A DNA stretch of 64,000 bases from Natronorubrum sediminis. GTDB taxonomy: Archaea; Halobacteriota; Halobacteria; Halobacteriales; Natrialbaceae. The first letter of the stretch is position 1. Every line of letters begins with the position of its first letter. Positions 17,941-18,545 of the stretch are shown here, in pieces. The stretch covers positions 992,001-1,056,000 of the forward strand of contig NZ_FNWL01000001.1 of NCBI RefSeq assembly GCF_900108095.1, read 5' to 3'. The notes under the pieces are model-generated. The model made no database searches. It had not been told where the DNA came from and worked only from the letters and a program-made list of their open reading frames with translations. A program made the position numbers and the translations under genes.

Positions 17941-18174
17941 CTACCGCTTTTTCAGGACCTCCGGTGGCAATCGACAGCCACAGGGAGCGACCTGTGCGGC
18001 GGACGGTTCGAGGAGTGCGACAACCATCACCGACTCGTGGCACTTCGGGCAGTGCGTCCAGCGTTTCATGCCGTTCGCGTCGCGATAGCTGTAGGCATCG
18101 TACTTGTGTCGCGAGCCGTCCGTGCTGTCAGCCTCGTCGTTCCCGCTGGAGTTGTCGTCGCTCACGTCGACCAC
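17941..18174 (-). CDS. Small zinc-ribbon-like protein (77 aa)
   Basis: The N-terminal third is Asp/Ser-rich and probably disordered; a conserved-looking core follows: YSYRDANGMKRWTHCPKC, then a hydrophobic strand and PCGCRLPPEVL. CPKC plus CGC gives four cysteines for a metal site. The GTG at 18174 is the first start; another GTG lies three codons later. Upstream on the same strand is a TATA-like box (18262-18271) and, further up, the candidate structured RNA at 18294-18394, so this gene might have a long regulated leader. Function unknown. Confidence 0.65.
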   Translation of the reverse strand: MVDVSDDNSSGNDEADSTDGSRHKYDAYSYRDANGMKRWTHCPKCHESVMVVALLEPSAAQVAPCGCRLPPEVLKKR

Positions 18175-18261
18175 TCCAACACTCGAGGGCGGGTTGGTTG
18201 GGGCTCCATCAGTTGCGACAGGACCGCTTCTCGAGGAGTGTGATTCGGTTGCTGTTCGGGA

Positions 18262-18271
18262 CGTTTATATC
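18262..18271. promoter_or_regulatory. Bidirectional TATA-like box next to the structured RNA
   Basis: CGTTTATATC reads as a TATA box on both strands. On the plus strand it would start transcription near 18294, the first base of the structured element. On the minus strand it would start near 18240, giving a leader of about 65 nt for the zinc-protein gene at 18174. Confidence 0.5.
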
Positions 18272-18293
18272 GTCGTGGGAGTAATGTAATCAT

Positions 18294-18394
18294 GGCTTTT
18301 CGAAGCCTTGCGGCTTGGAAGCCACGTCTCGGGTGTCCTATCACCCGGGGCAGTTTAGACGTACGCCCCCGCAGCTTGCTGGAGCGCGGCTTCC
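18294..18394. ncRNA. Candidate structured RNA (nested helices plus pseudoknot)
   Basis: Helices seen by eye: GGCTT (18294-18298)/AAGCC (18303-18307) closed by a TTCG tetraloop; GGAAGCC (18317-18323)/GGCTTCC (18388-18394); ACGTCT (18324-18329)/AGACGT (18357-18362); CGGGTG (18330-18335)/CACCCG (18342-18347) with a TCCTAT loop; and GGGGC (18347-18351)/GCCCC (18365-18369), which crosses the ACGTCT helix and would form a pseudoknot. AAGCC can also pair with GGCTT at 18312-18316, an alternative fold. A TATA-like box lies about 25 nt before it on the plus strand, and another (18418-18427) lies about 25 nt before it on the minus strand, so direction is undecided. It matches no RNA family I recognise. 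Confidence 0.5.
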
Positions 18395-18417
18395 GTTCTA
18401 AATGTTGTCGTATTGTG

Positions 18418-18427
18418 ACTTATATCT
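18418..18427. promoter_or_regulatory. Second TATA-like box flanking the structured RNA
   Basis: ACTTATATCT reads AGATATAAGT on the minus strand. Minus-strand initiation 25 nt further on would be at about 18393, exactly at the closing helix of the structured element, and the transcript would run towards the zinc-protein gene. Confidence 0.4.
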
Positions 18428-18460
18428 ACTGTTGTATCTGTGAAATCGACTCGGGAGGCG

Positions 18461-18545
18461 GACGAACGGCCGAGCGAACGGAACGAACGGAACGAACGCG
18501 ACTGAGCGAACACGGTCGAAAAAGACAGCGAACAGAGCGAACGGG
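18461..18545. repeat. Imperfect GAACGAACG-type simple repeat
   Basis: The motif GCGAACGGAACGAACGGAACG and variants (GAGCGAACG, AGCGAACA) recur about ten times. On the minus strand this is a GTTCGYTC array immediately downstream of the stop of the membrane gene at 18554, with a T5 run (18519-18523) inside it. It may contribute to transcript ending or 3' processing. Confidence 0.55.

Follow-up and report, generated by a model that had tools for sequence, protein, structure and literature searches.

The structured RNA found in the window, the whole 64,000-nucleotide stretch of Natronorubrum sediminis DNA analysed here, is identified by comparative sequence analysis as the probable ~103-nt 5' leader (18396-18294, minus strand) of a two-gene operon. 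The best explanation, to which we assign a probability of roughly 0.6, is that this leader controls translation by alternative pairing, its closing helix P1 competing with a second helix, P1', located just before the AUG of the first gene, ORF1. Comparison among relatives supports the strand, the P1-P2-P3 fold, the mutually exclusive P1/P1' pairing, the position of the AUG and the linkage to zinc-protein genes. The leader looks like an RNA switch that has no earlier description, and it likely behaves as a translational switch leader, for which the status of a riboswitch would require a ligand. Rfam gave no match at the gathering score for the window and 14 relatives, and none at E<=1 for 18150-18450. 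A search of the open-licence literature found no earlier paper on the leader.

The leader (18294-18396) was delineated by two covariance models (R1 and R2), by covariation and by its fold (z = -3.8), and its architecture is a three-way junction in which P1 is closed around two stacked hairpins, P2 and P3. The 5' strand of P1, GGAAGCCGC (18386-18394, minus), pairs with the 3' strand GTGGCTTCC (18317-18325, minus), within which TGGCTT (18324-18319) can alternatively pair with AAGCCA (18298-18293). P2 (18347-18369, minus) is formed by GGGGC (18369-18365) and GCCCC (18351-18347), the last C of which might instead open P3; it is a short version of a helix that varies in a compensatory manner in relatives (GGGCAU/AUGCCC, GGGACG/CGUCCC). 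P3 (18330-18347, minus), formed by CGGGTG (18347-18342) and CACCCG (18335-18330) and stacked beside P2, is 99.6% paired in a broad alignment, with two-sided changes at four pairs. A further hairpin with a GNRA tetraloop, P4 (AAGCC-GCAA-GGCTT, 18303-18316, minus), is frequent in the host family, Natrialbaceae, and missing from many other lineages.

Two-sided changes were found at 13 of 21 pairs in a MAFFT alignment of 30 sequences (A9; 0/500 shuffles), and at 19 of 21 pairs, with 152 such cells, in an alignment of 49 sequences that was made to the covariance model and is biased towards it (A10; 0/500 shuffles). Slid controls abolished the signal in both alignments. When eight representatives were folded singly, the lowest-energy structure was the identical three-way junction, with z from -3.6 to -5.3. 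A conserved folded domain with covariation support, as demanded of a riboswitch, is thus present. An earlier note, made from the window alone, had proposed a structured RNA of no known family with switch-like, mutually exclusive pairings, and both proposals are borne out: the element folds better than shuffled sequences and has no Rfam match, and the exclusive pairings are conserved among relatives. The alternating GGCTT/AAGCC pentamers on which it had relied are present where it placed them. Its 7-bp closing helix GGAAGCC/GGCTTCC exists, extends to 9-10 bp on the minus strand and shows the compensatory changes across relatives that it had suggested looking for. Other parts of its layout did not survive comparison: the ACGTCT/AGACGT helix occurs only in the immediate lineage of the window, close copies reading ATCCCT, GCGCCG and others; the TTCG-capped hairpin belongs to a plus-strand reading, the minus-strand hairpin having GNRA loops; and the pseudoknot is not supported as a conserved part.

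The strand was decided by asymmetries in the RNA itself. In a minus-strand reading, P1 stays paired through 85 G-U cells and has just 3 A-C cells. Among the tetraloop hairpins that follow P1, 31 of 58 have a GNRA loop when read on the minus strand, compared with 1 of 64 for the plus strand; the transcript is therefore assigned to the minus strand. The minus-strand fold (z = -3.8) was equalled by none of 200 shuffles, and the plus strand gave z = -2.5. A BRE/TATA-like box, CAGTAGATATAAG (18419-18431, minus), is the candidate operon promoter and is centred ~29 nt upstream of where P1 begins; transcription is predicted to start at ~18394-18396. In 58 nonredundant copies, positions -37..-24, counted from P1, are high in information, and 30 copies from other families have an AT peak at -31..-28 despite differing sequence. 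The promoter keeps a constant distance from P1, and the AUG lies at the leader end, in otherwise unrelated sequences. A short run of GAACGGAACGAACG-type repeats is found upstream of the promoter, at 18469-18500.

A free small RNA on the plus strand, which the earlier note had allowed by leaving the strand open, is rejected on the wobble asymmetry and the GNRA loops; a plus-strand ORF from 18292 was likewise rejected, since spacing between copies is not in multiples of three. The note had rightly seen promoter-like boxes on both sides, and both TATA-like boxes are kept among close copies. Its minus-strand alternative, a 5' leader of the zinc gene, holds as far as a leader of the operon is concerned and had missed the 43-aa ORF1 that intervenes; also missed was the spread of the element over Halobacteriales and viruses.

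The 5-8 nt directly preceding the AUG can base-pair with the 3' strand of P1. In the window this P1' strand is AAGCC (18293-18298, minus), followed immediately by the start codon (AAGCC-AUG); elsewhere it reads GAAGACC-AUG, GAACCC-AUG, GAAACC-AUG, GAAAGCC-AUG or GAUGCC-A-AUG. In most of 37 diverse copies it abuts the AUG (CC|AUG end) and overlaps the P1 partner. Among 30 diverse leaders, the own pre-AUG strand paired better than swapped partners (0/5000 permutations). P1 GGTTT is matched by pre-AUG AAACC in 9 of 9 host-family copies, a triple-strand change that was probably a single event in one genus. P1' is weakened in ~10 of 111 host-family copies.

In computed folding, the pairing of the six pre-AUG nucleotides rose from 0.38 to 0.87 once the P1 5' strand was blocked, against 0.47 for a shuffled pre-AUG sequence with the same block. 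In several host-family copies, the window among them (0.45 to 0.70), the shift is smaller. Several host-family copies have a pre-AUG segment that is 69-81% paired even when P1 is allowed. Pairing of the AUG per se is nearly flat on average (0.41 to 0.50 with the block). Sequence and computed folding hence give an exclusive pairing able to mask the start region, and since P1 and the alternative helix are mutually exclusive beside the start codon, translational switching is the likely function of the leader. P1 (9-15 bp) is usually far stronger than P1' (5-8 bp) and is also made first; therefore P1' would need some factor that displaces P1.

According to the mechanism we propose, the leader would fold into the three-way junction closed by P1, and the P1 3' strand could swap to the copy of the P1 5' strand sited immediately before the ORF1 AUG. 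With P1 formed, the pre-AUG nucleotides would be mostly free and translation could start; with P1 blocked or opened, P1' would form against the AUG and ORF1 translation would fall, the on/off direction being our inference. Translation of the zinc gene would fall too, through its presumed coupling to ORF1. For the trigger, our leading guesses are binding of the leader by a product of the operon, or zinc/metal status, because the genes found with the leader encode zinc proteins of several unrelated types instead of members of a metabolic pathway.

A rather unlikely alternative is that the leader serves as a platform to which a protein binds, probably an operon product (autogenous control), so that the pre-AUG copy of P1 would be a second binding site or a decoy in place of a switch helix. 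The linkage almost only to small zinc-protein operons, the basic ORF1 of the host family and the action of many CPxCG zinc proteins on nucleic acids (PMC2253796) are all in keeping with such a platform. On the other hand, the pre-AUG strand and the P1 3' strand remain complementary although their sequences change, which would be needless for a mere decoy, and the downstream proteins are of unrelated types (SWIM-like, CPxCG ribbons). A bolder extension of the switch reading, which we regard as doubtful, is a haloarchaea-specific riboswitch-like class directly sensing zinc availability or the level of zinc-finger protein; it would govern how much is made of hundreds of small zinc proteins, viral ones included, as one RNA strand changes places between two almost identical partners beside the AUG.

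The gene that begins at the leader AUG is predicted to be ORF1, of 43 aa (MITLLPRRYKRPEQQPNHTPREAVLSQLMEPQPTRPRVLEWST; 18162-18293, minus, stop included), whose frame is conserved and ungapped at the start. Its codons 2-7 vary chiefly at third positions, as coding sequence does, and codons 8-13 are constrained at all positions (e.g., AAA in 55 of 58 copies), which points to a superimposed nucleotide signal. A palindrome in ORF1, GACGATATAAACGTC (18260-18274), matches the plus-strand TATA box of the earlier note; in most relatives it reads CGGGAY-AUAAAC-GUCCCG, is kept even at synonymous sites and has covarying arms (GC 68 / AT 44). It may act as a further hairpin, as another promoter for the zinc gene or as an antisense promoter.

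ORF1 is followed by the zinc-ribbon micro-protein gene MSDDNSSGNDEADSTDGSRHKYDAYSYRDANGMKRWTHCPKCHESVMVVALLEPSAAQVAPCGCRLPPEVLKKR (17941-18165, minus; motif CPxC..PCGC, alignment A7), whose GTG start overlaps the ORF1 TGA by 4 nt and whose family has no Pfam or NCBIfam model above cut-off. Zinc binding of this and the other downstream proteins is predicted from Cys spacing. A zinc ORF lies behind 103 of 121 host-family copies having the leader AUG, with no recognisable one in the other 18; the overlap between the ORF1 stop and the zinc ORF start is exactly 4 nt in 77 copies, 8 nt in 14 and 11 nt in 11, and the two ORFs are fused in two copies. ORF1 is basic in the host family. Of 30 diverse leaders that R2 found, most of them from other families, 27 precede a Cys-pair protein encoded either by ORF1 or by an overlapping ORF2, the type differing by lineage (SWIM-like in Haladaptatus, CPxCG elsewhere). 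In one of them (L421) the CPVCG protein is encoded by the second ORF, which overlaps the first by 4 nt. The leader AUG is itself the start of the zinc-type ORF in other families, and the RefSeq start of the SWIM zinc finger gene of Haladaptatus caseinilyticus is exactly the AUG behind GAAGACC. One viral copy (L342) has no clear zinc motif downstream. Small zinc proteins of unrelated types as the common theme are a lead towards a shared signal or a shared control mode, not a demonstration of either.

These gene arrangements also bear on the idea that the leader is a functional small RNA made from the first promoter, the zinc gene being driven by a second one (GATATAAAC inside ORF1). Although the nucleotides of GATATAAAC are themselves constrained and a conserved block follows ~25 nt farther downstream, and both boxes are kept in the host family, we consider this idea quite improbable in view of the ORF1 frame with its 4-nt zinc ORF overlap and of the zinc-type ORFs of other families that begin, and are annotated as beginning, at the leader AUG.

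The genome of the window has three further copies of the element. Within the host family, 72 of 125 genomes were positive by plain DNA search and 79 of 125 by covariance model, with copy numbers per genome of 4 up to 25 or more, all of them lower bounds; carriers include Natrinema, Natrialba, Halovivax, Halopiger, Natronorubrum, Halostagnicola and others. The leader-only model R2 detected the leader in 155 of 392 genomes of Halobacteriales, representing 57 of 95 genera, at a threshold of E<=0.01 per genome, where E-values are rough and a few single weak matches may be due to chance. As a specificity control, a phylum sample of 295 genomes gave 16 matches, all within Halobacteriales. The first model, R1, had suggested a cassette restricted to the family, which R2 overturned. 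The leader is also present in a Haloparvum genome, in one genome of another family and on three viral contigs. Searches of phage collections gave no leader match, and the pattern GTGGCTTCC..GAAGCCATG occurred on 20 viral contigs, near the estimated chance number, with significant model matches in only two. One viral contig carries, beside a typical leader, a second and highly diverged one (L359:10091-10188, minus; GGGUU / AAACCC-AUG).

Outside the host family there are mostly 1-2 copies per genus, and one genus of another family has 15-36 per genome. In this genus (L401-L404, L406) the leader precedes a 45-48 aa CxxCG protein, in most of the inspected cases together with an overlapping second Cys-rich ORF. 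Halovivax-type genomes (L197, L209, L210, L212-L214) carry 24 or more copies of the leader; several of these copies keep the ORF1 start but have no recognisable zinc ORF. One Natrinema genome has about ten near-identical cassettes (L111, L112, L119, L124, L125, L131, L132, L137, L146, L156) within larger shared plasmid-type stretches.

High copy numbers, both in the host family and in the 15-36-copy genus, random orientation and neighbours, and occurrence on plasmids and viral contigs might suggest a mobile or selfish cassette, whose leader and small genes would spread together, with the RNA acting in its own propagation. This is very improbable, since copies diverge with compensatory changes, most outside genera have only 1-2 copies, and the near-identical copies of genome G082 are embedded in larger shared plasmid stretches of differing limits.

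Like translational riboswitches and bacterial start-masking leaders, the element is a probable 5' leader with a covarying conserved junction and an alternative helix at the coding start. It differs from translational riboswitches in that its masking strand ends at the AUG without involvement of a Shine-Dalgarno sequence, and that it precedes genes of zinc micro-proteins, not of metabolism or transport, lacks an Rfam match and has a ligand only as a candidate. Leaders for autogenous control of ribosomal proteins are likewise dedicated to the gene downstream, with feedback possible; the present family, in contrast, precedes several unrelated proteins, and product binding is only a candidate.

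The closest biological counterparts are brz-brb and bp4-OE2447F-boa4 of Halobacterium salinarum, in which a small zinc-finger protein and a small, partly basic protein share an operon and bp4 overlaps OE2447F by 7 bp (PMC2253796, PMC3184054). The zinc-plus-small-protein layout is common to both: the host-family operon co-encodes a small zinc-finger protein with a small basic one, and in other families the partner is not always present or basic. The region upstream of OE2447F is, however, accounted for by the bp4 ORF with no structured leader described (PMC2253796, PMC3184054), whereas one is predicted for the window operon. The brz-brb type is tied to Bat-type regulators, while the leader family has BAT/HTH_10 in only 3 of 111 downstream neighbours. 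The neighbour scan, done with a home-made ORF caller, gave no consistent partner, the neighbour genes being otherwise unrelated and randomly oriented, and a Bat/PAS-linked module was rejected. The window does have a BAT + HTH_10 transcription regulator gene (PF15915, PF04967; 16853-17512) close downstream of the zinc gene, which recalls Halobacterium bat/boa neighbourhoods. The C(P)XCG zinc-finger micro-proteins of Haloferax volcanii resemble the zinc-ribbon protein in having fewer than ~90 aa and two Cys pairs, and no leader RNA was found in the abstracts and listings on them (PMC11241148, PMC6562870).

With a leader that occurs across many genera and shows compensatory change in both competing helices, control of translation at the archaeal start codon can be tested directly in cultivated species. 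Natural riboswitch-like leaders have, to our knowledge, hardly been described in haloarchaea. Of the protein transcripts of Haloferax, 72% are leaderless (PMC4983044). The leader is also a shared regulatory mark for poorly understood zinc micro-proteins and helps to find more of them; many records leave these proteins unannotated.
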